Shown here in pieces: positions 36,064-60,529 of a DNA stretch of 64,000 nt (its first letter is position 1; each line of letters opens with the position of its first letter). The DNA lies in NCBI GenBank assembly GCA_034401135.1, contig JAWZSP010000003.1, positions 4,774,001 through 4,838,000 on the forward strand. The letters run 5' to 3'. The notes under the pieces are model-generated. The model saw only the letters and a list, made by a program, of their open reading frames with translations, was not told the origin of the DNA and made no database searches. Both the position numbers and the translations under genes were made by a program. Origin of the DNA: Volutella citrinella. Lineage: Eukaryota > Ascomycota > Sordariomycetes > Hypocreales > Nectriaceae.

Positions 36064-38878
36064 ATGGCGGACACCCGGAGAACGCCCTCCCCTCAGGGAG
36101 TGCCCATGACAGACAACCCTCGCCATTCGCATCAGTCCCGGCGATCGCAACAGGGTGTTAGTGATGTCTCCTCGGACTTCAACGAGGTAAAACGCCCCAG
36201 ATCTATATCCGCCCTTCAAGCCCCCATGTACCTGTCGAGCTCTTGCACCAGAGACGCCGAGAGCATGCGTGGAACCCATCGCTAACCTCCTTGTTTTCCG
36301 CAGTCCTTTTCATATGATGAGGATGACCTCCGCGACTACAATACCGAACAAGACCTTCATGTCACCGAGGACGATCTGCTCGAAGCCCGTGAGCTAGCTT
36401 CCAAGTACACCCTCCATGATGTCAGACAGATTATGGCCCGAGTCTACCGAATCCACGAGAAGGACCCCAATTTCCCACTCATCGTCATTCAAAAAATCAA
36501 ATCTTTCCTTGACAATGAAGAACTTTTTGAGTTTCCCGAGAAGCACGAAAATCTTGTCCAGGAGATGAAGCTCGAAGCTGCACTCATCACCAATAACAGC
36601 CCCTATGCGGAAGTGCGTGCTGTTGTTGGCAACAAGGACGACGTCACCGAACCATGCTCAACCATTCGAAGCTGGGTCATTGGCCTGAGCTTTTCCATCC
36701 TTCTCGCCTTTACCAACCAGCTATTCGATATTCGCCAACCTGCCATCCGAATTCTCGCCAACGTTGCCCAGCTTTTGGCGTATCCTGTGGGAAAGGCATG
36801 TGAGCGCTGGCTCCCTGACAAGGGAATCACACTCTTTGGCGTCAGGCACTCGCTCAACCCGGGTGCTTTTTCCAAGAAGGAGCACATGCTCATCACTGTC
36901 ATGGCCAACGTCGCATACAACACGCCCTACACAAACTACATCATCTGGGTCCAGTACTTGCCCCAGTATTTTGACCAAGAATACTCGTCCTACTTTGCCT
37001 ACCAGATTCTGATTGCTCTGAGCACCAACTTTATCGGGTACGGAATGGCTGGCATCTGCCGGCGCTTCCTGGTGTACCCGTCATACTGTGTCTGGCCTGC
37101 GTCTCTTGTCACCATTGCTCTCAACGCTGCCTTCCACAACGAGAGCAACACGCCTGTCGAGGGACCCTTTGGCAAGATTTGGCGTATTTCCCGGCTCAAG
37201 TTCTTCTACCTCATGTTCGGTGCCATGTTCCTTTGGTTCTGGTTCCCCAACTACTTGTGGACCTCCCTTTCCAACTTCAACTGGATGACCTGGATCGCCC
37301 CGGATAACCGCGACCTTGCGACTATTACAGGCTCCAACAATGGTCTCGGTATCAACCCATGGCCCACGTTCGATTGGAACATTCTCCTGTGGGACTCGGC
37401 CGATCCGCTTATGGTTCCCTTCTTCAGCACGTTCAATCGGTTCATCGGCGTCTTGATCTCCCTCCCCGTTGTCATCGGCCTTTGGTATGGTAATGTTTAC
37501 AACACTGGCTACCTACCCATCAACACCAACAGAGTTTACGATCACTTTGGTGAGCTGTACGACATCTCTCGTGCGGTCGATGACAGGGGCTTGTTCAACC
37601 CCAAGGAATACTACGAGTACTCGCCACCCTTTGTCGGTGCCGGAATGGTGGTCATTTACATGTTCTTCTTCGCCATTTACACTTCGACATTGACATATGC
37701 GGCGTTGTACCACCGACGCGAGATCGTCACTGGATTCAAGGGGTTGTTCAACAGCATACGCAAGAAGAAGGGCAGCTCGCAAACTAGCGAGGAAACCCAC
37801 GACTTGGATGTGCACAGCCGCCTGATGAGGGCTTATCCCGAGGTGCCAGAATGGTGGTATATGGTTTGTCTCGTACTGGCAATTGTGTGCGGCATTACTG
37901 GCATTGCCTGTTGGGATACACACACCACTCCCGGAGTCATTTTCTACGGCCTGGCCTTGTGCATTGTCTTTGTCATCCCAGTCGGCATCATCAAGGCTAT
38001 GACTGGTATCGAGGTGACTCTGAACGTCCTCGCCGAGTTCTTGGGTGGATCCATGGTTGCGGGCAACGCTCTGGCCATGAATTATTTCAAGTCTTTCGGA
38101 TACGTGACTTGCGCCCACGCCATCATGTTCTCGAATGATCTCAAGCTCGCCCATTACGTCAAGATTCCGCCTCGGCACACTTTCTCCGCCCAGATGATTG
38201 CGACTTTCATCAGCACTTTCGTTTGCGTGGGAGTGCTCAACTTCCAGATGGACCACATTGACAACGTCTGTACCGAGACTGCTCTTTTCAAGATGACGTG
38301 CCCCGGTGTCAACACGTTCTTCACCGCATCCGTACTTTGGGGCACTGTTGGGCCTGAAAAGATCTGGGGTAAAAACGGCCAGTACACGGAGACGCTGATC
38401 GGCTTCCCGCTCGGCGTGATTGCCGTTGTCATCGTATGGCTCATCAACAAGAAGTTCCCAAAGTGGACCTGGACCAGACAGATCCACCCCGTCGCAATCA
38501 TGTACGGCGGCATCGTGTGGGCCCCCTACAACATGTCCTACGTCTGGCCTTCGGTCCCCATTGCCTATCTGTCGTGGATTTATCTGAAGTCACGCTTCCT
38601 CGGCTTCTGGTCTAAAGTGAGTGGAGCGCCCCTTCAACGCCAAGGCTTGCCTGCTAACGCTTTCACAGTACAACTTCGTGCTCTCTGCAGCCTGGTCATG
38701 CGGCATTGCCATCGCTGGCATCATCATCTTCTTCACACTGCAACTACACGGCACGGAACTACATTGGTGGGGCAACGATGTAGCCGAGGATGGTTGCGAG
38801 GGCGTTGCCTGCACGTTATTGAAGCTCGACAGAACCAAGGGAGAGTACTTCGGACCTCGCATGGGAGAGTTCGCCTAA
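36064..38878 (+). CDS. OPT-family oligopeptide transporter (Isp4-like)
   Basis: Three exons (36064-36186, 36304-38616, 38669-38878) encode 881 residues. Introns are GTAAAA..TTCCGCAG with a GCTAAC branch point and GTGAGT..TTCACAG with GCTAAC, both phase 0. The first 115 residues are a hydrophilic cytosolic region. Multiple membrane spans follow from about residue 150. Family signatures are NPGAFSKKEH (226-235), a GYGMAGICRRFLVYPSYCVW block (about 286-305) and KIPPRHTFS (from 661). Length matches fungal OPTs. These proteins are proton-coupled importers of tetra/pentapeptides, glutathione or peptide-type metallophores at the plasma membrane. The exact substrate is not readable from sequence. The start ATG (CCATGG context) is followed by a plausible short exon. 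A pyrimidine-rich tract lies upstream. The gene converges on the NRPS-like gene, with about 1 kb between their stops. Confidence 0.96.
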
Positions 38879-39881
38879 AATCGCGTGTCAGAGAATGACG
38901 AGAGGGTGGTGTAATGATTATGATTGAGCGTTCTATACTTGCATATCTGGGGTCAGGGTTACCGACATATGGTGCTTCATTTTCTGGGCTACTGGGTTGG
39001 GAACGGAGTTTTTATCGCTTGCGTTTTGTTGTAGATGCATTACTGGGGATAGAACCATGGCGGTACAAGGACAGCCGAGAGCAGCAGAGTTTCTATGCAT
39101 AGAGACCACCATTGCAGAAAATTGCGCAGTGACCTTTTTTTTCAGCTCATTCCCAATACGCATTCCTTGGGCTGGCCCATGAACTTGATGAGATTGTTGA
39201 TATTCGTACACTCTGATGCTCGCAAGTTGCGCGGTTTCTAGCTCTTCGTTGTTTGGAACAGGGACATGTCACAGGATGAGGCATTAGGTTTTTATGAATT
39301 GTTCTCTTTTGTAAACTGACTTCTGTTGTATCAACAGCAGTGATGGCAATCTTGCCCTAAAACTACTCATGACTTTTTCCGCAGAGAAAAGAAAAACGTC
39401 GAGGGCAATTTCGCTGCCCCTACAGCCAAGATGCAGCAAGCCTAACCGGCTGTCTGTCATAACAGTAAAAAAACGATGGAAGAGAAGTAGACAGGTATCT
39501 TCGTTGAATGCCTCCCGAACCCAACCGCTTTGTCCAATAACGCCGGTTCCAAAAACAAGACCAAAAAAGACAATGAAGAAAATAGAAAAGAAGAGGTCGA
39601 GGAACGATGTTCGAGCCTGAAAATGCCTAATTATACAGGACATGACCGCAGGAGATCCCAGTGTCGTAATTGTACCCATAGATATAGAGAGAGGACAATA
39701 TTGGAGACGTGTTTCCCATGGTGTCGGATGCTTTGCATAATAAAAACCCAAAATGATGCTCAACGAATGATGCAAACAACAGAACCGGATAAATGACGAA
39801 ATCCGCTGCAAAGATTGAGAGAAAAAAGTAGATGTGGAAAAGATGAACAGAGAATAGAACAGGAAGGTGGGAGCACGCTGG
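38879..39881. other. Convergent 3' region between OPT and NRPS-like genes
   Basis: One kilobase, clearly more AT-rich than its flanks, holding the two facing 3' untranslated regions. Open frames on either strand (for example 39,284-39,940 on minus) are hydrophobic or Lys-rich readings of AT-rich DNA without domains. A-rich runs such as AATAAAAACC near 39,740 could act in polyadenylation, but no site can be fixed. Confidence 0.6.
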
Positions 39882-42800
39882 CTAGTTGACTTTGGCCAAC
39901 GTGACGCCACCTTCGCAGACAGTCTTGTTGCCATAGTCATTCAGATCAACTCCGCCAGAGAAGCTAATTGGGCTGATGGCGTCGATCTCGCCAATGACGG
40001 GCGCTGGGCCGATGACGGGCGCTGCGGCATTGCGATCGCGATCGGAGGAGGCGCTGTTGCGACCAGATCGCGAGCCCTGCTGCTGCTGCTGCTCGCCGGC
40101 GCTGTCCTCCTTAATGGTGTGGAAGCGGGCAGTGCTGGCTCGTCGCGCGGGGGTAGCGGGCGTAATAGGCGACAGCTGGGACTCGAATTCGCGGAGCGAG
40201 TTCTTGCGCTTCCAGCTGGGGGAGGGCTTGATGGCCAGATCCTTGACGTTGCCACGGCTGTCCCTGCCGCGGAGGCGGCGGATGCTGTGCTTCCAGGAGG
40301 CGTCGGAGGGATCCCTAGTGATGTTGTTGTAGTTGCTGACGGTGCTGCCCAGGCTGCTGACGCTGTTGCCATTGAGCGGCGTAGTTGAGCGCGGGCGCCA
40401 TGGCACGGCGGCCTGGCTGAGGGCGTCGAGGCGAGAGGCCATGCTCTTGTGGCGCAGGGGCAGGGAGAGCGATCCCGACTCGCGGAGGCGGCGGGCGATG
40501 AGCTCCAGCTGCGCAAAGGCCGTGGGGTTCTCGATGATGTCCTCGGGCGTGAGGTTGATGAGCTCAAGGCCGTTGATCCTCACCTTGGCGGGAAGGTCCA
40601 CGTTGAGACGCTGGGCCAGAGCGTGGGCGGGTAGCAGCAGTGCTGATGAGCTGCCCTCGAGGTTGTAGAAGGCAGTCTGTTGGCGCTCGGCGTCGGACAC
40701 GCCCTCGGTTGGCTGCTTGAGAACATCGGCCCAGACAGCCGAGATGGCTGCCTCGAGGTCGGTGCGCTGCTGGGGAAGTAGCAGCTGGTCCAGAGGAATG
40801 CGCAGCGTGCTGGTCTCGGGCATGGGCAGCGGGATCTGCTTGTCGGAGCGCGCAATCTCCTCGGCCGACTGCATCAGGGGCTGGTCGAGTGTGTCGGTGT
40901 AGGTGAGCGTCTCGATCGCCGCCACGAGGAGGCGGAGGCAGTCGTGGGCGAAGCTGGGGCTGACACGGCTGTCGGCAAACTTGAGCTCGAGCTTCAGGCG
41001 CTCGGCGCCTTCGGTGGAGGAGCAGAGCATCAGGTCCGGCATGTCCTGCGCCTCGGGGTCGACGGTGCGGAAGGAGAAGGTCGTGTCCGCCATGTTGAGC
41101 GTCGCGGAGCCCAGGGACAGGGGCTTGCTGCGGTGGTGCACGACGGTGCTGAACTGGGTCCACGACGGCCAGTTGGTGCACTTGGCCACCAGCTCGCGCA
41201 TGCTGAAGCCCTCGTACTTGGCGTTGCTGCGGCGCTGGCGCTTGACGTACTTCATCAGGTCGATGGGGCTACTGTGCAGCGACGGGAACTTGACGCGCAC
41301 CGGGATGGTGTTGGTCAGGGGACCGATCATGCAAGCGACGTCCGTCTCCTCGGGGAGAGGGACGTGGTGGGCTTGGATGACCTCGCCAAAGAGCACATCG
41401 CTGTTGCCAGAGATGGTGGCCAGCATATATGCCCAGGCAGCCTTGACGACCATGTCCTGGGAAATGCCAACACTGCCGAGGGCGCCCATCTTGACCGTCT
41501 CCTGGATGCTGGTGATCTGACCAGTCGGGCCATAGGGCTTGGAGTGGTCAATCACCTGCGTCATCCTGGCGCCCTCGAGCTGGGTACGCCAGAACTCGAG
41601 GCCCTCCTGGTAGTACTCCTCCTTGCGCGTGGCTCGCACGTACTCGAAGAAGCTGGCGACATCGCTGGCAGGGTCCTTGGTCTCCTCGTACAGTCCGATG
41701 AGGTCCTGCACTAGGAGCGGCACCGAGGCGTCGTCGATCTGAGTCCTGCTGAGGCGCATGATGAGTGTGCCCTGCTTTCCGGCATCCAGGTAGGTGAACT
41801 GGGTGACGGGCTCGTGGGGCTTGAACTCCAGCTCCTGGTCCTGCTTGATGAGCTTGGTCGCCACGGTCTCCAGTCGCCAGTGGGGGCAGGGATACTTCAG
41901 GAAAGCAGCCTTGAAGGCGCCGCTGAGTACCTGGCAGACGCGGTCCTCGTGCGCGACAAAAGCGGTGCGGAGGACGGGGTGCATGCGCGAGAGGGAGTCG
42001 CAGGCCTCCTCCAACTTGGACACGTTGATGGGCCCGTTGAAGTCCAAGACCAGGGACACAATGTCAGCGCGCGACTTGTACATGCCAAGCTCAAGGCTTC
42101 GCACCTGTGGCGCGGCGGCGTCAGTCACGTCTAGGATCTCGTGCGACTGGAGGTTGAGCTTGGGCGCGATGACATCCTTGATCAGCTTCTGATCGCCGAC
42201 GGCAGAGATGGTGATGCGAGACCCCGTAGCAGGGGTACCGCTGCGCTTGGCGACCTTTTCAGTAGCCATGGCGCGGCAAATCTCAGTGAGGGTGGCATGG
42301 CGGCAGATGTCGTTGAGCGTGATGCGAAGGCCAAATTTGCGGCAGGCCACGACCAGCTCGGCGGCGAGGAACTTGTTGCCGCCGCAGGAGAAGAAGCTGC
42401 TGGTGCCCTTGATGTCCGAGGGCGATGTTCCCAGGACGCGGGCCCAGATGGAGCGCATCACCTCCTCGGGCCGGGTCAGAGGCAGAGGCTTCTGGGCGAG
42501 GATCACGCGCTGGATCTCGAGCGGGTTCGGCACAGTCGACATCTCGAGAAGCTCGCCGTATGTGTGCTCCGCAGTAATGCGTTGAAGCTTGCGGCGGTTG
42601 ATCTTGAGCGACGTCGAGGTGGGGAACGACTTCATCGGAATGAAGAGAGACGGGACACAGTGGTCAGGAAGGCGAGGCGTGTTGGCGTCGACAGTGTTGT
42701 CCAGAGACGCCTCAAAGAGGCGCTGTGCGATAAAGGTGCGCTCCTTGACCTGGAGGCTGACGTTGTCGAAGCCCTCCTTTCCGTGGAACAAGGCACCGCC

Positions 42801-45800
42801 CAGCTCGATAAAGGCGGCGAGGACCTTGAGCTGATCCTTGGTGTAGACGGTGTCGACGACCACGTCGATGCCGTGGCCGAGAACCCGTCGCATGTAAGCC
42901 TCAACATCGGAGACGTCGACGCTGGAGCCGTCCACGACGACCTCGTCACGGGCGCTGGAAATGAACTGGACGTTGCCATTGTCCAGGTAGCGCACGCGGT
43001 GGCCCGTCTTGAGGTATCGCGGCTTCTGCTTCTCCGCGGGGGTCATGTGGTGCATGCTGGGAGCGACCAGGGGCTGGTCGGGCAAGTATCTGTGAGGAGT
43101 GACAACGGGGGCGTCAATGGCGAGCTCGCCAATGGCACCGATGGGCATCATCTTGCGCGGGTCGGTCGGGTTGAGGACCCAGAAGCGACCGGAGAGGGGA
43201 GGTGCGATGATGCTCAGGTCCTTGTCCTTGGTGACCTCGGTAATGGAGATACCAAGCGGGCAGATGTCGGGGGCGCCATAGGCGAGCAGGATGTTGCGGT
43301 TCTCCATCCAGGGCTCGTAGGTATCGGGGTCCAGCTTGCGGGTGCGGAAGCAGAGAGTCTTGAGCGAAGGCACCTCGGCGGGGCTGATGCGTCGTGCGAG
43401 AACACCCGTCATGTAAGTCCAAGTAACCTTCATGCGAGCCATGACGCCAGGCAGGTCATGCATGCGATCGCGAGACGAGGGGATGCAGACACAGCCGCCG
43501 TGGACCATTGTGCCGAGCATCTCAACCAGGGAGATGTCGACGTTGAAGGCCGAGAGCTGCATCACGCGGCTGGTGCTGTCCATCTTGAGCGCCTCACCCT
43601 GGCTGGTGAAGACGGAGCAGAGGGAGGCGTGGGTGAAGAAGATGCTGCGGGACTCGCCAGAGCTGGTGCGCTTGGGGGTCACGAAAACGCAGGCAGCGTG
43701 GTCGGGAGTCGGCTTGCGGGCGAGGAAGGACATCTGCTGAGGCAGCGAGGCAAAGAAGTTGTCATTGATCACCACCAGATTGAGCACGATGCTGCTGAGA
43801 TCCTTCCAGCCCGTCTCAGAGCTCAGGACGATGCGCGGGCTGAGGTGGGTGATGGTGGAGCGGACCGTGATCTGGTCCTGGCAGTCGAGAGCGACGAAGG
43901 AGGCGCCGGCCTGGAGGACCGCAAGGAGCATGATGGGCGCCCAGCGGTTCTTGTCCAGGACAACAGGTATAACCATTCCAGGGCCGACACCCAGGTTGAG
44001 GAGATAGGTCCTCAGCCGGGTGGCCATGGTGGCCAGCTCGAGGTAGGTCACATCACCGTCCCAGGAGCAGATGGCCTGCGACTCGGGCTCCAGCTGAGCG
44101 TGGTGGAGGATGAGCTCGTGGAGGCACCCGGGCACCCTCTTGGTGCGCTGGGTGGACTCCCAGTCATGGAGGACGAGATGGGCGTAGTCGCGGTCGTTAA
44201 AGAGGTCCGTCTCGGCGATGAGGCGCGTAGGATACTCCAGGATGCTCTTGACGGCCTGCTCGAAGCTGTTCATCACACTGTGGATCTGGTTCGGCGACAG
44301 GTGCCGCGAGCTCAGGCTGGCGTGCAGGCGGTCGTCGGCGAACATGGCAGTCATGGAGAGCTCACAGTCGGACTGGCGGCCGCAGGTGACGAGGTTGGGA
44401 GTCGCGCCAATGGCGCCGTCTGACGACTCGACAACCTCGCCTGCGACAGTCTTGGCCTCCTCGAAGAAGAGGCAGGTGTTGAAGAGAGACTGGTCGCGGA
44501 CACGCAGGGCGTGCTGGATCTCGGCCATGGTCAGGTTCTGGTGCTTTTGAGACTGGGCCATCATGTCACGGATGATCTTGAGGAGGTGGGCGACAGTCTT
44601 GTTCGGCGACACCTCGACTGAGCAGGGCAGGTTGGTGGCGAAGCTGCCAATGGCATCGGTGATGCCACTGAGCATGTCCTCGTCGCGTCCGCAAAACTGA
44701 TAGCCAAAGGTGACGTGGTCCATGCCGACAAAGGCACGCAGGACGAGCGCCCAAGCCAGCTGCAGCACAGTAGCGGGCTCAATGTCACGCTCCCAGCAGA
44801 AGGTGACAAGCTGCTCGCGCTTCACGTCCAAGTCGAAGGGCTGGTGTCGGGGAGCGTCCTCGGCGTTGGGGCTAAGTCGGGGGAAGATGCACGGTCTTGT
44901 GTCGAGGAGGCCGGCCTTCCAGACTTCCAGGCTGTAGGCTGTGTCAATAGAAGAAGTGTGGTAGAGGTAAGTCTTGTGGAGGGCTTCGTTGTGAGTAGGG
45001 GCTTCGCCGCAGTAGACGCGGCTGAGCTCCGAGACCAGGTTGTGGACGCTGCCGAGATCGCAGATGGCCTGGCTGACATCGATGCGGACAAACGTCTTGG
45101 TCTTTGTGCGGCACACGGAGAGACGGTGACGGGGCTCCGTCAACTGCGACTTGTTCAGCGTGGGGAGTTGGGACAGTGCCTCCTCGGGTCGCGTTGACTC
45201 GATGAAGAGCATTTGGGGTGAGATCTTCTTGAGAACGACCTGATCGAAAAGGCCGTCCCGGGAGACACTATCGATGAAGATGCTTCGTAGCGCGGGCTTC
45301 TCGTTGACGATGCTCTCCCAGGCGGCGCAGAGGCGCGTCTTCTCCACCGCCGTGCCGTCAAGGGCTCGGAGCTCGTAGACACCGTGGACGTGGAAGTTCT
45401 CAATGTCCTGGCTCTGGGCCATGAGAATCTCCTGCTGCGAGGGAGTGACGGGGTAAATGGTCTCCATGTCGTAGACACTGGGGATGCTGCCTCCAGCAAG
45501 CCTGTCACTCGTGAGCCTCGCCAGCGCCTTGTAGGTTGTGCGCAGTAGAGGGACATCAGAGAGAGTCAGCTCGGGTTCGTGGTATCGCAGCTTTCCAATC
45601 GCCTCGAGGACGAGGTGCTCAAAGGTCTCAATCCACGTCTCAATCTTGGAGCACAGGCTAGATGTCTGGTTGTAGGTAAACTCGACGTGGGTTCGAGTGT
45701 CGTCCCGGATAACGGAGCACTCGAAGACGGCGATTCTGCCCACCTCGGGGCCGACCTGTGATCGGACAGACCCAACTTCCTGGCCGGGGGCCGAGGTAGG

Positions 45801-47846
45801 CTCCAGGATGCCTCCCTTTCGCTGGATCTGCTGCAGAGCGTCAAAGTAGCTGAAGAGGATCTCGACGGGGATGCGGGTAGCGGCGCTCTGGCCGCCCGAG
45901 AACTCGGAGGTGAAGAAGGGAATGCCGTCTCGGGGGATGGCCCGTCGGGTATCCTTCATGAGCTTGATGGTCTGGATAATGTCGGTGGCGGCGTCCATGC
46001 CCACGCCAATGGGGCAGAGGGAGGTGAACCAGCCAACAGTCTCCATGATGTTGAAGTCGGCGTGGACGGCGTCTCGGCCGTGCTCCTGCTTCCATAGTGT
46101 GGGAGGGGCCCGGTTGGGGAAGATCTGGCTGAAGGACAGGAGCAGACAGGCGAGGAAGATGTCTGAGGTCTCGGTGCGCAAGACATTGTTGCAAGTTTCC
46201 TGCAGAATGGCTGAGAGCTCCTCGCTTAATGAGAAAGACACCTTCTTGCTGTTTCCGTAGGTGTTGGTGTCCTGGGTGACGCCCCAGTACTCCAGGTTCG
46301 CTGGTAGCACGTCAAAGGGGAGTGTGGGCTCAAAGAGGCGCTGGCTCATCTCGAAGCTCTGGAAATCCACCCAGTGGGGGAAAGGGATGGAACCTTCGGA
46401 CAGAAGGCAGCCCTCGCGGAGGAGCTCGTCCAGGTCATGGGTGATGATTCGCCATGAAATCAGGTCCACCACCAGGTGGTGGGCCACCAGGTAGATGAGC
46501 TGCTCATTCTCATTCTTGATGTGCTCGACGGCGAAGACGGGGCCGTCGACGGGATTGATGGCGCGCTCCGCCTCCTCGATGGACTGCTGGATGTCCTCCT
46601 GGTCCGCATCAGTGTGGTAAACAAACCGATAAGAGTTGGCAGCCTGGGGGATAATAGTTTGCGCCCAGCCATCCTCGACGGGGCGGAAGCGGGCCCGGAG
46701 CATGGCGTGGCGGGCCACAACGGCCTCGACAGCCGCCTCAATGTCTGAGGGCTCGGCTCCTCCCTTGACTCGGAGCATAATGCTCTGGGTGTAGCGGAAC
46801 CCGGCATCTCGGATCGTCATGGACTGCCTTTGCTTGCTCATGGAGATCTGGAAGTAGAGCGCCTGCATGGGGGAGAGGGAGAAGCACTCGGCCTCGGGCG
46901 CCATCTCCTCCTCCTTCCACTGCTCATGGCGGGACTCGACCCAAGAAAAGGCCACCTGCTCGCGCGTCGACTGGCCCTCTTGGAGCCGGGGCTCGGGAAT
47001 CTGTAGCTTCATAATCTCATTGTGCAGGGTCTCATTAGCGTTTTGCACCCAGGTCTGCATCTTCCTCGTGTCTGGTTTGCCCTCGCTGAGCTGGGGCATC
47101 GACTTGAGAGGGATCCAGATGCGCGGGCGCTGGGCTTCAGTGGCCCATTCCTGTACTATTAGGCGAAGCGAGCGAATCTCTCGCTTGTGAATGCTGTAGT
47201 CTGAGGGGGGAGGTAGGGAGACCTCGTTTGAGGGGTGGAGTTCAATCTGGGATCCGGCGTTGATCATGACGAGGGCCACCAGCTGGCCGTCAAAGGGCCC
47301 AGCCTTGGGCTTCACCAGGAAGACCTCATTGACGTGAGGGTTCGAGCGCAGCAAGCTCTCAATGTCGTCGGACTTTTGGGGAGCGGCGGTGCCGGAATTA
47401 GAGCTGGGCCGTGTCGACACGGAGCCATAGCTGGATACTGAGTCGGCCCAGCGGCGGTGACCGGGAGTGAACATGTCCTCGGCAGGACTCTCGCTAGAGC
47501 CGTTGGAGTCGTCCTCTGATGAGCTCGCCTTTGTGTTGTTTAGGGCAGCCACGGCGATGTTGGGGGGGAAGGGTGTTAAGCGGGTCTGGAGCTCGGCGAG
47601 GGTGTGACACTGCATGGTATCGGCGGGTTTGACGTCGACACCCTTCCTCCGGCAGGCGAGCTGGAGGGCTTCGGCGGCTTCTAGGTCGCCACCGAGGTCT
47701 GTGAATGAATCGAAGAGAAGGATTTCGTGGCGGGGGATGTTGAGGGTCTGGGCCACGGCCAGTATTAGGCGCTCCTCGGCAGGCTCGTCGTGGATGACAT
47801 CGGTGTCTAGCCTAGGTAGGCTTCGTCTGAATCCTTCCTCGGTCAT
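39882..47846 (-). CDS. NRPS-like multidomain protein with degenerate catalytic motifs
   Basis: Intronless, 2,654 residues from the ATG at 47846. Domains in order: carrier-like (about 25-92), a piece resembling the C-terminal adenylation subdomain (about 160-268, ending in an EGKPDTRK motif), epimerization (about 320-765), condensation (about 795-1,215), adenylation (about 1,237-1,772), carrier (about 1,795-1,865), condensation (about 1,910-2,315), carrier-like (about 2,365-2,455), then a basic Ser-rich tail with a Gln run. Many active sites are changed. The carrier serine is Leu in GGDL (55) and Lys in CGGNK (1,825). The condensation SHAxxDG motifs read SQAICDL (about 926) and SRTQIDD (2,033). 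Adenylation A3 reads TPKRTSSGES and the A7 TGD is TGH. HHLVVDLISW of the epimerization domain (456-465) and a Ser in the last carrier (EGSSS) survive. An uninterrupted frame argues against decay. It is probably a pseudo-synthetase of unknown role. Confidence 0.92.
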   Translation of the reverse strand: MTEEGFRRSLPRLDTDVIHDEPAEERLILAVAQTLNIPRHEILLFDSFTDLGGDLEAAEALQLACRRKGVDVKPADTMQCHTLAELQTRLTPFPPNIAVAALNNTKASSSEDDSNGSSESPAEDMFTPGHRRWADSVSSYGSVSTRPSSNSGTAAPQKSDDIESLLRSNPHVNEVFLVKPKAGPFDGQLVALVMINAGSQIELHPSNEVSLPPPSDYSIHKREIRSLRLIVQEWATEAQRPRIWIPLKSMPQLSEGKPDTRKMQTWVQNANETLHNEIMKLQIPEPRLQEGQSTREQVAFSWVESRHEQWKEEEMAPEAECFSLSPMQALYFQISMSKQRQSMTIRDAGFRYTQSIMLRVKGGAEPSDIEAAVEAVVARHAMLRARFRPVEDGWAQTIIPQAANSYRFVYHTDADQEDIQQSIEEAERAINPVDGPVFAVEHIKNENEQLIYLVAHHLVVDLISWRIITHDLDELLREGCLLSEGSIPFPHWVDFQSFEMSQRLFEPTLPFDVLPANLEYWGVTQDTNTYGNSKKVSFSLSEELSAILQETCNNVLRTETSDIFLACLLLSFSQIFPNRAPPTLWKQEHGRDAVHADFNIMETVGWFTSLCPIGVGMDAATDIIQTIKLMKDTRRAIPRDGIPFFTSEFSGGQSAATRIPVEILFSYFDALQQIQRKGGILEPTSAPGQEVGSVRSQVGPEVGRIAVFECSVIRDDTRTHVEFTYNQTSSLCSKIETWIETFEHLVLEAIGKLRYHEPELTLSDVPLLRTTYKALARLTSDRLAGGSIPSVYDMETIYPVTPSQQEILMAQSQDIENFHVHGVYELRALDGTAVEKTRLCAAWESIVNEKPALRSIFIDSVSRDGLFDQVVLKKISPQMLFIESTRPEEALSQLPTLNKSQLTEPRHRLSVCRTKTKTFVRIDVSQAICDLGSVHNLVSELSRVYCGEAPTHNEALHKTYLYHTSSIDTAYSLEVWKAGLLDTRPCIFPRLSPNAEDAPRHQPFDLDVKREQLVTFCWERDIEPATVLQLAWALVLRAFVGMDHVTFGYQFCGRDEDMLSGITDAIGSFATNLPCSVEVSPNKTVAHLLKIIRDMMAQSQKHQNLTMAEIQHALRVRDQSLFNTCLFFEEAKTVAGEVVESSDGAIGATPNLVTCGRQSDCELSMTAMFADDRLHASLSSRHLSPNQIHSVMNSFEQAVKSILEYPTRLIAETDLFNDRDYAHLVLHDWESTQRTKRVPGCLHELILHHAQLEPESQAICSWDGDVTYLELATMATRLRTYLLNLGVGPGMVIPVVLDKNRWAPIMLLAVLQAGASFVALDCQDQITVRSTITHLSPRIVLSSETGWKDLSSIVLNLVVINDNFFASLPQQMSFLARKPTPDHAACVFVTPKRTSSGESRSIFFTHASLCSVFTSQGEALKMDSTSRVMQLSAFNVDISLVEMLGTMVHGGCVCIPSSRDRMHDLPGVMARMKVTWTYMTGVLARRISPAEVPSLKTLCFRTRKLDPDTYEPWMENRNILLAYGAPDICPLGISITEVTKDKDLSIIAPPLSGRFWVLNPTDPRKMMPIGAIGELAIDAPVVTPHRYLPDQPLVAPSMHHMTPAEKQKPRYLKTGHRVRYLDNGNVQFISSARDEVVVDGSSVDVSDVEAYMRRVLGHGIDVVVDTVYTKDQLKVLAAFIELGGALFHGKEGFDNVSLQVKERTFIAQRLFEASLDNTVDANTPRLPDHCVPSLFIPMKSFPTSTSLKINRRKLQRITAEHTYGELLEMSTVPNPLEIQRVILAQKPLPLTRPEEVMRSIWARVLGTSPSDIKGTSSFFSCGGNKFLAAELVVACRKFGLRITLNDICRHATLTEICRAMATEKVAKRSGTPATGSRITISAVGDQKLIKDVIAPKLNLQSHEILDVTDAAAPQVRSLELGMYKSRADIVSLVLDFNGPINVSKLEEACDSLSRMHPVLRTAFVAHEDRVCQVLSGAFKAAFLKYPCPHWRLETVATKLIKQDQELEFKPHEPVTQFTYLDAGKQGTLIMRLSRTQIDDASVPLLVQDLIGLYEETKDPASDVASFFEYVRATRKEEYYQEGLEFWRTQLEGARMTQVIDHSKPYGPTGQITSIQETVKMGALGSVGISQDMVVKAAWAYMLATISGNSDVLFGEVIQAHHVPLPEETDVACMIGPLTNTIPVRVKFPSLHSSPIDLMKYVKRQRRSNAKYEGFSMRELVAKCTNWPSWTQFSTVVHHRSKPLSLGSATLNMADTTFSFRTVDPEAQDMPDLMLCSSTEGAERLKLELKFADSRVSPSFAHDCLRLLVAAIETLTYTDTLDQPLMQSAEEIARSDKQIPLPMPETSTLRIPLDQLLLPQQRTDLEAAISAVWADVLKQPTEGVSDAERQQTAFYNLEGSSSALLLPAHALAQRLNVDLPAKVRINGLELINLTPEDIIENPTAFAQLELIARRLRESGSLSLPLRHKSMASRLDALSQAAVPWRPRSTTPLNGNSVSSLGSTVSNYNNITRDPSDASWKHSIRRLRGRDSRGNVKDLAIKPSPSWKRKNSLREFESQLSPITPATPARRASTARFHTIKEDSAGEQQQQQGSRSGRNSASSDRDRNAAAPVIGPAPVIGEIDAISPISFSGGVDLNDYGNKTVCEGGVTLAKVN

Positions 47847-56099: not shown

Positions 56100-59000
56100 T
56101 CAGACGACGACTTCGTCATCGTCCGGGTCCTCGATGCTGGTCCGCCTCTTTGCCTCCTTGACCTCGATGGCCTTCTTGTCGTCCGCGTCTATACTGCCTC
56201 CCTGCTGTGATTCCGAGCCTTCTTCGGACGCAATTCGGCCACCTTCCTTCTCCTTCTCAGCCTTGGACAGCCCGAATGGCCACAAGCCACCCAGTCCGCG
56301 CGCTGCTCCTTCCTTGGCCGGGTTGACGGCCAGAGGCTTCAACACCCCCGTTTGGCTCGCATCATTTCCCGTCGTGGCCCGATCTCGGTCGTCTTCGGCC
56401 ATGGCGAAATCTCCAAACTCATCATCGTCATCGTCTTCGCCACCCTCATCGTCGGACTCATTGCCATCCGTCTTGCCTCCGCGGTCCTGGACCATACTTC
56501 GCCACCATGCACCCCGGCCATCGCCCTGCGATCCGCCGCGATCGTCATCATCATCGTCGTCGTCGAGATCCTCCTCCGTGTCCGCAAACGGATCCATAGG
56601 GTTTTCGTCATCATCATCGTCATCCCCGCGATGTAGCGTAGCAGTTGAGGACTGCGCCGCCGCCTGGTTGTTCTTCTGGTGCATCGCCAGCCGTGCTGCC
56701 AGCTGAAGCCGGGCCCTCGACGGCGGGATGTTCAATGGCGGCGGCGGAGGGGGGGGCGGAGGGACCGAGGGAGGCTCCAGAGACCCTCCCGCGTTGCTCA
56801 GAGGATCAGTGTAGGCTCGGAACTGTGAGGCCAACGTTAGCATCCGACGGCATTGTGAGATCTGGAGACAGAGTAAGAAAAGTGATCCCGTGACGGCATG
56901 GACATCCTGCGTAGAAACTTGGCATCGCTCATCATCCCCATTCCATTCCATTCCCTTTCCTGCTGAAGCAGCCCTAGCTCTTGTTATCCTTTGGTCCTCT
57001 TGTTGATGTATACACAACCCCGACTCTCAACTCCGATTGCAGTGTAATATACATGACTCCCCGTGTGTAACCAAAGCGTGCGTTCCATCCATGCCAACCC
57101 ATCCAAGCAGAATTAACAGGCCCCTCGCGATGATGTCGCGCAAGTCAGCAACCGCAGAAGATCCTCCAACTCTACATCTTCAAACGCCTCTAGGTGACCA
57201 AGAACCGTGTCGTCATCGTGAAACAAGTCGTCAATAGCATCAGACGTGGGCAACGGGCCGCCGCCCCGGTCTTGGTACTGGCAAGACCGCCCCTCCTAAG
57301 GACCATTCGCCGGGTGGACCGCAGCGCTGGCCGACCCTGCCTCAACTTGAGGCTGTTCCGATGTCACCGGCGTCTTTGCCGGCTCCATCGTACTATCCAA
57401 GTCCATGGGAGAATCCATTGGAATGTCCAGATCGCGGCCAGCTTCGGGGTACGCTGCCCTAAGCGGTTCCGGAGATCCCATCACTACATCCTCGAGAGAT
57501 TCCACGATGCCGGTGTGTCCAGAAAAATCCATGCCCTCTCCGTCGCCGAGATCTTCAGTGGAATCACCACTCACCTCTGAATTCACATCTTCCTCGTCTC
57601 CTTCACCGTCGTCGTCTTCTTCGTCGCTACTACTGCCGAATCCAGACATGAGGGTGCTGGCGCTGATCGCAAAGGGGCCGATTCCGTTGCCGCCGCCGTT
57701 CTCGCTCAATTCGATGCCTCCGTTGAGGCCGGCTTCCGTGAGAGCGTTGGAACTACCGCCAACACCGCCACCAGCACCACTACCACCGCCGCCACCACTG
57801 CCTGCGCCTCCTAGACCAGAGAGGCCGACGCCGCCAAGTCCGCTGCCGCTCATTGCACGGTTGCCAAGCGCCACCTCTGGACGCACTCCGCCAAGAATAG
57901 CGTTGTCACGCTCACGCGTCTCGGCAAGAGCACCCTCAACGTAGTTGATCCACTCTTGGCTCATGACTCTATCGAGAACAGTCTCGGACAGTAGCTCAGG
58001 AGGGTGTCGCTCTGTGAACTTGACCACCTCCTCGGCAATAAGGGTCAGGTGGCCCATGTAGCCCATACGGGTCTTGGTCTTGGCTTGCGACTCGTCGCTG
58101 GCTTGTTGGCCGTTGATAATGGCGCTGGTTACGTCGGCCGCCTCGAACAGCGAGATGGCCAAGTTAGGGTTGAAGCCGCGGTCCATTGGGCCATTGAAAA
58201 CTTGTTGCACGATATCGTAGACGACATTGTGCAGGAAGTTGTTCCAGGGATATGCGAAGAAGAAGGACTGATTGTGTGAGTGTATGGTAGGAAAAGAGCA
58301 ACACTACAGGGAGGAAGACTTACCAGAATGGTTGGCACAACACGATACTCTACAAACTGCAGCTTCAGATAGTCTCCCACAACAGGGTCGACAGGGGGAT
58401 TGGCCACGAGTTCATCCGTGGTCTGTTTTCCTTGGATCTCCGACACATTAAAAGTCCTGCTGTCTTCCACAGAAATCTCCTTGTCTCCGGTGGGGAGGAG
58501 AGGAAGCGGCTTGTCAAGTGCCAGAGGAGGCTTGCTTGCTCCGGACTCGGGCGCAGGAGGGGCAGAAAACAAGGGAGCAGGAGTGTCTTCAGGGTGAGGG
58601 GACAGCTGCTTAGCCTTGGTTGCATCGTCAGGAATACCGGCATCTGCAGTCTTGTCACCGGCTTCAGAAGTGGCCGGGGTCAGGATGACGGAGGAGTCGT
58701 CATTCTTGGAGCTTTCCTGGGCATCAGTAGCGGCCGTGGCATCGGCTGACGGGACCTTGCTGTCGATAGCGGATTCCTTCTCTTCGGCTTTAGGAGCCTC
58801 GCTGCCGCCGGCGAGATCTGCAGGCTTCGGTTTTGTGGGCGAGAGGGGAGCAACCACCAGGTCGGCCTCTTCAAACTTGGGCGAGCTGAGTTTCTCGCTG
58901 GTGACGACTGCTGTTTGCGGGGGACTGAGAGGTTCATCCACAAAGTTATCGTCATCCTTGACCGCAAGCGAGGACACAGGCGCAGGCGAGATATCGGCTT

Positions 59001-60529
59001 CAGCCTTGACAAACTCGTGGGACGTATCTTCACTCATCTCCTTGCTTGGCTCTACTTCCTCAAAACCGTCGTCGTCGGCGTTCGTCACTTCAAGGCGCCG
59101 GGGCTCATCAGGGACGCCGTGAGTCCGTCGCATCGTCAAGTCGTCGGCTGAGTGATCATCCTCCTTGACAGGGCCGAGCTTGCCCTCATATCTCAGACGT
59201 TGTCTCTCGGTGTCGCGCTGAGCAATCACATCCTCGGAGCCCAATTCGTTCAATAGGCCCATGTTACTGCAGTGCAGAAGCTCGGCCATCAGCTCGCAAG
59301 TCTTGAACCGATCGAAGCCAAGGGGCTCAAGTTTGTCGCCAAAGGTGGAGTCGATCTTGCTCTTCTGGGCGGGAGTATCCATGATGAGGTGCATGAACTT
59401 GGGGACGTTGTCGGCGAAGAGGCGGAGCAGGGTGCCCAGGTAGATGGGGTCGCGGCTGGATGGAACAGCGCTGGCCTCGGTGCCCATGTCCGGGTCGTAG
59501 TCGGAGTTGTTCTTTCGAATGACCTCGATAACGATGCCAACACCCACGGTTAGCGGGTTGCCGCCTCTGAGCATGTAGCCAATCAACTGCTCGACGCATG
59601 CCTTGGAAACAAGTTGGCGAGTCAATTCATTGGGGCCGATACACTGCTGCTCGTTCTGGGAAGCGTTGGCAGAAATGGTGATGATTGCCTTGATGAAGTC
59701 ACCAGCGGCGGTCTGGACGACCCAGTTGTTCTCGGGGGCGAGGCATGACAGCAGGGTGGGAATAATGTCTTTCGAGTAGAGCCACTGCGGAGGAGCTGAT
59801 TAGTACACTGCGAGTCAATAGTTGGGGTCGCAAAGTGCATACCTCGACAACGCCTTGACCGCCATCGTTGCGGTCTAGGGCGATAACCTTGAGCAGGAGA
59901 TCCATAATCATGGGGCACTCGACGTGCTTGAGCAGATCGGGGACAGCATCGGGGATGCTCATGAGGAGCTCCATCATATCCTCGGTCTTCTTCTCGAAGA
60001 GCGACTCGTTGACCTTTGTGAAGTAGCTTGCTTGTAGCGGGTCGAGCGGGGCTGGGCGCGACAGGAACTTCCAGAAGTTGCGAATGAGCTGGCGGTTCTC
60101 GGCGAGAGCCTCATAGATGGACCATGTGTCGGAACTCAAGATCTCGCAAGCCACAAAGGCGTAGCGGTTGCGCTTCTTTTCTTGCTCCTCCTCGTCGTCG
60201 TTGCCAGGGTCGGTGGCAGAGGAGGCGCGGGGGCGGGAGAAGACGAGTCGCTTTTTGCTCTTTTCATCGCTGTTGTCGCCGGCGGCGTCGTCGTTGTCAG
60301 CAGCGTCGTCCGGGGCCGCGACGGACTCTAACTTGGGCGCGACGACATAGTCTAGGAGGGTCTCGAGGATCCTGTCCTCGCGCAAATACTCAATGAGCTT
60401 TGTGTTGTGCTGCTTCAGCTCCTGGATTAGGTCGCTTTCGTCAAGCAGCTCCTCGAGGGTGAAGTCAGGCTTGTCGAGGATGGTATCGATGGTGGAGATG
60501 TTGGCGTAGCCGCCAAATCTCCAAAACAT
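56100..60529 (-). CDS. SAPS-family Sit4 phosphatase-associated protein
   Basis: Regulatory partner of the PP2A-like Sit4/PP6 phosphatase (yeast SAP155/185/190, fission yeast ekc1). Exons: 60529-59843, 59784-58324, 58267-57575 and 56822-56100, giving about 1,187 residues. The first two introns (GTATGC..CCGCAG with a TACTAAT branch, and GTAAGT..AATCAG) are secure. The N-terminus MFWRFGGYANISTID and the block PWNNFLHNVVYDIVQQV are family hallmarks, and the alpha-helical SAPS domain spans roughly the first 270 residues and resumes after a disordered acidic/Ser-Pro insert (about 390-690). The C-terminus has a Gly-rich run, an acidic run, a polyproline stretch, an RARLQLAARLAMH segment and more Asp-rich sequence. 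The last intron (57574-56823, GTGAGT..CACAG with GCTAACG, phase 0) is 752 bp, very long for this gene set. Without it the protein would end at a TAG (57,296-57,298), giving 1,039 residues. Function: Sit4-dependent G1/S and TOR-linked signalling, by homology. Confidence 0.88.
56823..57574 (-). other. Candidate 752-bp last intron of the SAPS gene containing open coding-like sequence
   Basis: The splice sites are strong (GTGAGT; GCTAACG then CACAG) and phase 0 on both sides. However, the first 93 codons inside stay open in the exon frame with acidic, protein-like content until a TAG at 57,298-57,296. After that stop the same frame continues for 60 codons with another acidic run (PTSDAIDDLFHDDDTVLGHL) to a TAA at 57,115-57,113. 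An alternative donor, GTAGAG near 57,175, would also join the final exon in frame. A run of ATTCC units occurs near 56,937-56,958. Either this is an unusually long intron or it holds alternative terminal or cassette exon sequence. Confidence 0.55.

Follow-up and report, generated by a model that had tools for sequence, protein, structure and literature searches.

What keeps a reading frame of 2,654 codons open when the NRPS-like protein that it encodes has lost nearly every catalytic motif? This question is raised by a locus in Volutella citrinella, lying within a window of 64,000 nucleotides (contig JAWZSP010000003.1, positions 4,774,001 to 4,838,000), the whole stretch of DNA that was analysed. 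A preliminary description of the locus had reported an uninterrupted gene with altered carrier, condensation, adenylation, and epimerization motifs, and had proposed that selection for a non-catalytic role maintained it. The frame (ORF 47846..39882, minus strand) is indeed open throughout after its ATG, with GC contents of 0.60, 0.43, and 0.82 at codon positions 1, 2, and 3, respectively.

The V. citrinella protein is composed, in order, of T1, a truncated A domain (Asub only), E, C, A, T2, a terminal C domain, a weak T3, and a tail (Table 1). It is an NRPS by fold and descent, its C, A, and T domains standing in NRPS order and being detected by family models; above cut-off, PF00668 matched three stretches, PF00501 one, and PF00550 two. 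The weak third carrier-like domain, the truncated A domain preceding E, the kept A10 lysine (K1748), and the long tail had been overlooked in the preliminary description. The order T-E-C-A-T-CT is that of TqaA- and FmqA-type NRPS, and the last C domain is related to the CT domain of TqaA (PDB 5dlk, 94 bits); in contrast to this type, most of the tested catalytic motifs are altered here, the core is missing from the first A domain, and a weak T3 and a tail are added. A missing upstream A-domain exon was considered and rejected: no AMP-binding match adjoining the gene was found in the genome scan (14 of 101 candidates scored), and T1 is also the first domain in four mapped relatives. An antisense ORF of 760 aa (42141-44423, plus strand) extends across A and T2 and most likely results simply from the high GC content of third positions.

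Table 1. Coordinates, within the window, of the V. citrinella gene, its domains, and two neighboring genes.
Feature	Position	Strand	Remarks
Whole gene	39882..47846	-	2,654 aa; one unbroken frame from ATG to stop
T1 carrier-like domain	47592..47792	-	res. 19-85; GGDL in place of Ser motif
Asub1	46986..47381	-	res. 156-287; A-domain C-terminal subdomain, core missing
E domain	45540..46922	-	res. 309-769; HHxxxDxxSW kept, EGHGRE to QEHGRD
C1 condensation domain	44235..45470	-	res. 793-1204; second His to Gln
A domain core	42882..44162	-	res. 1229-1655; PF00501 76.8 bits; A3, A5, A7, A8 altered
Asub2	42522..42881	-	res. 1656-1775; A10 Lys1748 kept
T2 carrier-like domain	42282..42494	-	res. 1785-1855; PF00550 38.9 bits; Ser lost (GGNK)
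C2, terminal condensation-like domain	40890..42194	-	res. 1885-2319; second His to Arg
T3, weak carrier-like domain	40578..40787	-	res. 2354-2423; PF00550 17.6 bits, below cut-off 20.8
Ser/Arg-rich C-terminal tail	39885..40577	-	res. 2424-2654; low conservation
OPT oligopeptide transporter gene	36433-38898	+	just downstream of the whole gene, tail to tail
SAPS (SIT4 phosphatase-associated) gene	57296-60529	-	across three ORFs

Each motif change named in the preliminary description is present in the sequence, and domain-wise alignment with three canonical NRPS (P0085, P0086, and P0089) makes the correspondence clear. The phosphopantetheine serine of the canonical GGDS is absent from both T1 (GGDL, residues 52-55) and T2 (CGGNK, residues 1821-1825), and the canonical carrier pattern occurs nowhere in the V. 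citrinella protein. The second histidine of the condensation motif is replaced by glutamine in C1 (canonical SHAxxD, here SQAICD, residues 925-930) and by arginine in C2 (canonical SHAQYDG, here SRTQIDD, residues 2033-2039). Among the core motifs of the A domain, A3 reads FVTPKRTSSGESRS in place of SGSTG, A5 reads YGAPD in place of YGPxE, A7 reads TGH in place of TGD (residues 1614-1616), and A8 is altered as well, only the A10 lysine, shared with the canonical proteins, being intact. The E domain has kept HHLVVDLISW (residues 456-465; HHLVVDL.SW shared with canonical NRPS), and thereby its histidine, but the glutamate of EGHGRE has become glutamine (QEHGRD, residues 587-592). Because neither T1 nor T2 possesses a serine able to accept phosphopantetheine, the protein should not work as a thiotemplate synthetase.

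Two protein searches (best 120 of 755 and best 120 of 501 matches) gave 204 proteins; three canonical NRPS, two of them from Penicillium, were set aside, and the 201 relatives together with the V. citrinella protein made up 202 rows. A third search, in which a member of 1,446 aa served as query (best 120 of 154), added fragments and short members, which remained outside the counts. Since these lists comprise the best 120 of 755, 501, and 154 matches, more members may exist than were counted. Among the matches listed in the third search, 27 proteins scored at least 517 bits, their named genera being presumably Sordariomycetes, and were followed by bacterial or other NRPS at 297 bits or less; as this search missed known Fusarium members of allowed length, it gives no proof of absence beyond Sordariomycetes. 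At the nucleotide level, one scan of genome_contigs, a set of bacteria and archaea, revealed no relative.

The named relatives among the matches listed belong to Hypocreales, Glomerellales, Microascales, Sordariales, Coniochaetales, Magnaporthales, Diaporthales, Lulworthiales, and Xylariomycetidae, and span all four Sordariomycetes subclasses that NCBI lists, the placement of genera other than Zalerion being our assumption; Zalerion is the only Lulworthiomycetidae row among them. The gene has descended vertically: in a tree built from 45 selected rows, all seven orders or groups represented by at least two rows come out as single clades, and nine groups need 8 changes, the minimum possible, as expected under such descent. 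A few members stand out individually. Two listed members come from Fusarium commune (P0018 and P0020), and some Fusarium may have duplicated the gene; Anthostomella pinea has, in addition to the full-length P0133, a protein of 1,255 aa (P0221) with Condensation matches only and 34% identity to P0200; and P0103 and P0108 (Diaporthales) reach about 3,470 aa, with tails near 690 aa.

The relatives lack the canonical motifs at the same positions, save for particular cases of C1 His, A7 Asp, T2 Ser, T1b Ser (T1b being an extra carrier), A5 Glu, and A10 Lys. Among the matches listed, neither EGHGR nor YGP[TASC]E occurs in any of 202 rows, the C2 histidine is found in 0 of 199, and a serine aligns with the T1 site in 4 of 195 rows, yet in none of them within GGxS. 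The T2 serine is present in two of the 199 rows (P0126 from Pseudomassariella and P0188 from Colletotrichum, both within GGxS), and the second histidine of C1 in 11 of 195, all from Colletotrichum and accounted for by one change on the tree, again among the matches listed. The same matches show aspartate in A7 in three of 200 rows (Daldinia), with histidine there in 165, glutamate or aspartate as the fifth A5 residue in 82 and 108 of 200 rows, respectively, and the A10 lysine in 138 of 199. The A5 glutamate occurs in 11 of the 12 Xylariomycetidae rows examined, and the A3 motif of Camillea (P0088) is near-canonical. Because identical positions are altered in relatives, sequencing error is not the cause of the changes; a recent local loss was likewise rejected, since the relatives among the matches listed share them. 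The losses in T1, T2, the E glutamate, A5, and C2 are common to all sampled orders and, on a tree without outgroup, most simply predate the class.

Mean inter-order identity (32 chosen rows, 422 pairs per domain, 393 for T1) is 0.46 for E and for T2, 0.43 for Asub2, 0.42 for A, 0.40 for C2, 0.37 for C1, 0.35 for T3, 0.34 for Asub1, 0.33 for T1, and 0.27 for the tail. The first histidine of E, Asp461, Trp585, Arg591, Asp1437 of A4, Arg1619 of A7, and Glu1649 of A8 are invariant, and several lost sites have seemingly been re-fixed, with glutamine at the E glutamate (0.84 weighted), histidine at the A7 aspartate (0.82), and Gln2036 in C2 (0.98). At the former serine sites of T1 and T2, entropy reaches the 93rd and 97th percentiles, respectively, of their own domains, and the C2 histidine site shows average variability (53rd percentile). 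The argument of the preliminary description that a neutral pseudogene would have gained stops holds in simulation, as random drift to 62% identity introduced an average of 38 stops over 10 runs, never fewer than 30, against the open frame found here.

Pseudoenzymes, such as pseudokinases, conserve a fold, lose their catalytic residues, and are retained for long periods. The V. citrinella protein resembles them, its relatives having lost catalytic residues while keeping fold and length across species, with the exceptions given above; it differs from them in that the loss affects most of an assembly line's domains together and not a single one. With no modifiable serine in T1 or T2, no catalytic residues in C, E, and A, and domains conserved throughout the class, the protein is best read as a pseudo-synthetase. 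There is good support for the view that it is dead as an NRPS and yet conserved, and we consider it probable that it is an ancient pseudo-synthetase that purifying selection has preserved as a folded protein of several domains, most likely for a non-catalytic role. The selection postulated at the outset is supported by relatives without canonical motifs (exceptions apart) and by domains conserved across orders. Enzymatic activity is presumably absent, and, by exclusion, a scaffold or ligand-binding role would be the most economical, because folds and not active sites were kept. Several features count against this reading: E retains His456, His457, and Asp461 with the adjacent Glu588; the A10 lysine, the A5 glutamate, the near-canonical A3 of Camillea, and the exceptions in C1, A7, T2, and T1b persist; and the tail is poorly conserved overall.

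The main rival, which we regard as unlikely, is a residual E-type activity towards a substrate or towards a carrier provided in trans, the remainder of the protein being structural. It would agree with E being, with T2, the most conserved region and with the preservation of HHxxxDxxSW: among the matches listed, the first histidine and the aspartate are kept in all 202 rows, the second histidine in 173, and Glu588 in 187. The glutamate at its canonical position is nevertheless found in 0 of the 202 rows listed, and T1 and T2 of V. citrinella lack the serine. The second histidine is glutamine, arginine, glutamate, or asparagine in the 29 other rows listed, with at least 10 state changes on the 202-row tree while the gene was kept (at least six for Glu588), and its repeated change weakens this explanation.

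Also deserving of little credence is the idea that the protein is a structural subunit that attaches to a working NRPS in the same cell and contributes a dead module to it, which would tie its job to one metabolite. The carrier and condensation folds through which such contacts are made are retained, but the gene is widespread in the class, whereas EAS-type NRPS are largely lineage-specific in architecture according to the retrieved sections of PMC2823734. Moreover, no further condensation-domain gene was found on the contig of the pseudo-synthetase. 

The genomic setting favors the pseudo-synthetase reading. One copy of the gene was detected in the genome (45.1 Mb, 26 contigs) within the sensitivity of the search; the possibility that it is a paralogue of a working copy was rejected, the next-best matches being 22-27% identical. 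Condensation domains occur at five loci, the pseudo-synthetase included. Each of the other four has A domains with SGSTG or SGTTG, YGPxE, and TGD and C domains with HHALYDG-type motifs; two have a serine-bearing carrier, and in the remaining two no carrier was recognised by the profiles used. Several single domains at these loci, either truncated where a stretch stops or degenerate (the second A domain of L009, for example), showed no motif. Around the pseudo-synthetase, Pfam matches among the 30 scanned of 51 listed ORFs of at least 150 aa comprise an OPT transporter, SAPS (three ORFs), a C2H2 zinc finger, and a DSP phosphatase, the last three being families not known to act in biosynthesis, with no tailoring enzyme among these 30, a scan that may miss intron-rich genes.

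Real peptide synthesis by a non-canonical route, for example through a serine of T1b in some Xylariales and Zalerion or of T3 in V. citrinella, appears very improbable. T1b is absent from the V. citrinella protein and was recognised in 120 rows and in 0 of 14 Hypocreales rows (V. citrinella included); its carrier position holds serine in 19 and glutamate in 64 of these 120 rows among the matches listed. The T1b serine requires at least seven changes on the tree, a pattern that could reflect repeated regain under selection, and Zalerion retains GGDSI in T1b and is altered elsewhere; both the T1b serine and the C1 histidine of Colletotrichum may be either retained or regained. The glutamate in an otherwise carrier-like LGGDE of 64 of the 120 relatives listed is a frequent, possibly favoured replacement of serine. 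T3 finds PCP-C structures as its top Foldseek matches (best E 0.068) and compares weakly with T2 in profile-profile comparison (probability 7%, E 0.005). Its serine (EGSSS) occurs only in the V. citrinella protein, inside a four-residue insertion missing from 201 of 201 relatives among the matches listed, the residue there in an ungapped reading being Leu in 133, Ile in 21, His in 20, Met in 13, Val in six, Thr in one, and Phe in one. The E glutamate and the C2 histidine are gone from the same proteins. A decaying pseudogene or an assembly error, which the many altered motifs might suggest, is already contradicted by the length and motif changes conserved in 201 relatives among the matches listed and by the strong codon-position GC asymmetry, and can be given practically no weight.

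Partial degeneration is found in other fungal NRPS. NPS6/SidD-type siderophore synthetases likewise include a degenerate A domain, and V. citrinella itself has an A-T-C-(degenerate A)-T-C gene (L009, G000:C2:1129500-1137500), which we take to resemble the NPS6 siderophore synthetase; unlike the pseudo-synthetase, it keeps GGDSL, GGDSI, HHALYDG, and SHAQYDE. ChNPS6 contains one degenerate A domain, and the retrieved sections of the same study mention no dead NRPS class (Bushley and Turgeon, PMC2823734). Our literature search of open-licence PMC papers found no description of a dead, class-wide conserved NRPS. Verticillium dahliae VdNrps3 and Neurospora crassa NCU04531, each of which accompanies two other NRPS-type core genes in its species, may be orthologues. 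In the sections retrieved, VdNrps3 is described as divergent, falls in a long-branch clade of low support, and is repressed in planta relative to culture (PMC6502550), and a predicted cluster that also contains laccase and nuclear-migration genes has NCU04531 as its core (PMC9239088); in contrast to the pseudo-synthetase reading, these sections treat both as core genes of secondary-metabolite clusters. A link to NCU04531 through a spindle-pole-body neighbor proved unsupported, the GCP genes of V. citrinella lying on other contigs. Many records of relatives among the matches listed carry NRPS names, two being auto-named fmqA, and "NRPS 12" in several of them was probably transferred from Aspergillus fumigatus nrps12, which is fmqA according to the retrieved part of PMC6737921. 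The Fusarium NRPS number (NRPS3 or NRPS12) is not settled by the retrieved parts of PMC10455376, PMC6480918, PMC10967133, PMC3694855, and PMC10455296.

We propose that the pseudo-synthetase derives from a fungal NRPS of order A-T-E-C-A-T-CT, in which the first A domain would have lost its core and T1, T2, E, A, and CT their catalytic residues, as would C1 in most lineages. This inactivation would have occurred before the Sordariomycetes radiated, and would have been followed by retention as a folded multidomain protein under purifying selection, the E, C, A, and CT folds most likely offering a platform for a protein or a small ligand. The tail would bear short, possibly phosphorylated motifs, through which the protein may be regulated. 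Among 192 tails of at least 60 aa, [VIL]SP[LIMVF][STG] occurs in 99, compared with 5.5 on average and at most 14 in 100 shuffles, at a density of 0.76 per tail versus 0.17 per body, and [KRSG]x[FILVM][RK][RK][LIF] in 108, compared with 5.3 (maximum 13) in 200 shuffles. The V. citrinella tail has the SP pattern twice (LSPIT, residues 2558-2562, and ISPIS, residues 2624-2628) and no match to the other. These motifs are a lead only, because the shuffles preserve composition and ignore relatedness and the patterns were picked after the tails had been viewed.

More tentatively, a complete NRPS assembly line might have been exapted before the Sordariomycetes radiation as a non-catalytic scaffold or sensor, with the E, C, A, and CT tunnels binding a ligand or partner and the conserved SP and basic motifs of the tail linking it to kinases. 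If so, it would be, to our knowledge, the first case of an assembly line preserved almost in full as a pseudoenzyme. The pseudo-synthetase reading is directly testable, because laboratory Neurospora or Sordaria is likely to have an orthologue, given a relative from Copromyces among the matches listed. Given the many NRPS-named records, fungal secondary-metabolism inventories probably count the gene as an orphan NRPS and seek its peptide. If the pseudo-synthetase reading is right, there is no peptide to find, and a class-wide multi-domain pseudo-synthetase would add a new kind of function to those of assembly-line proteins.
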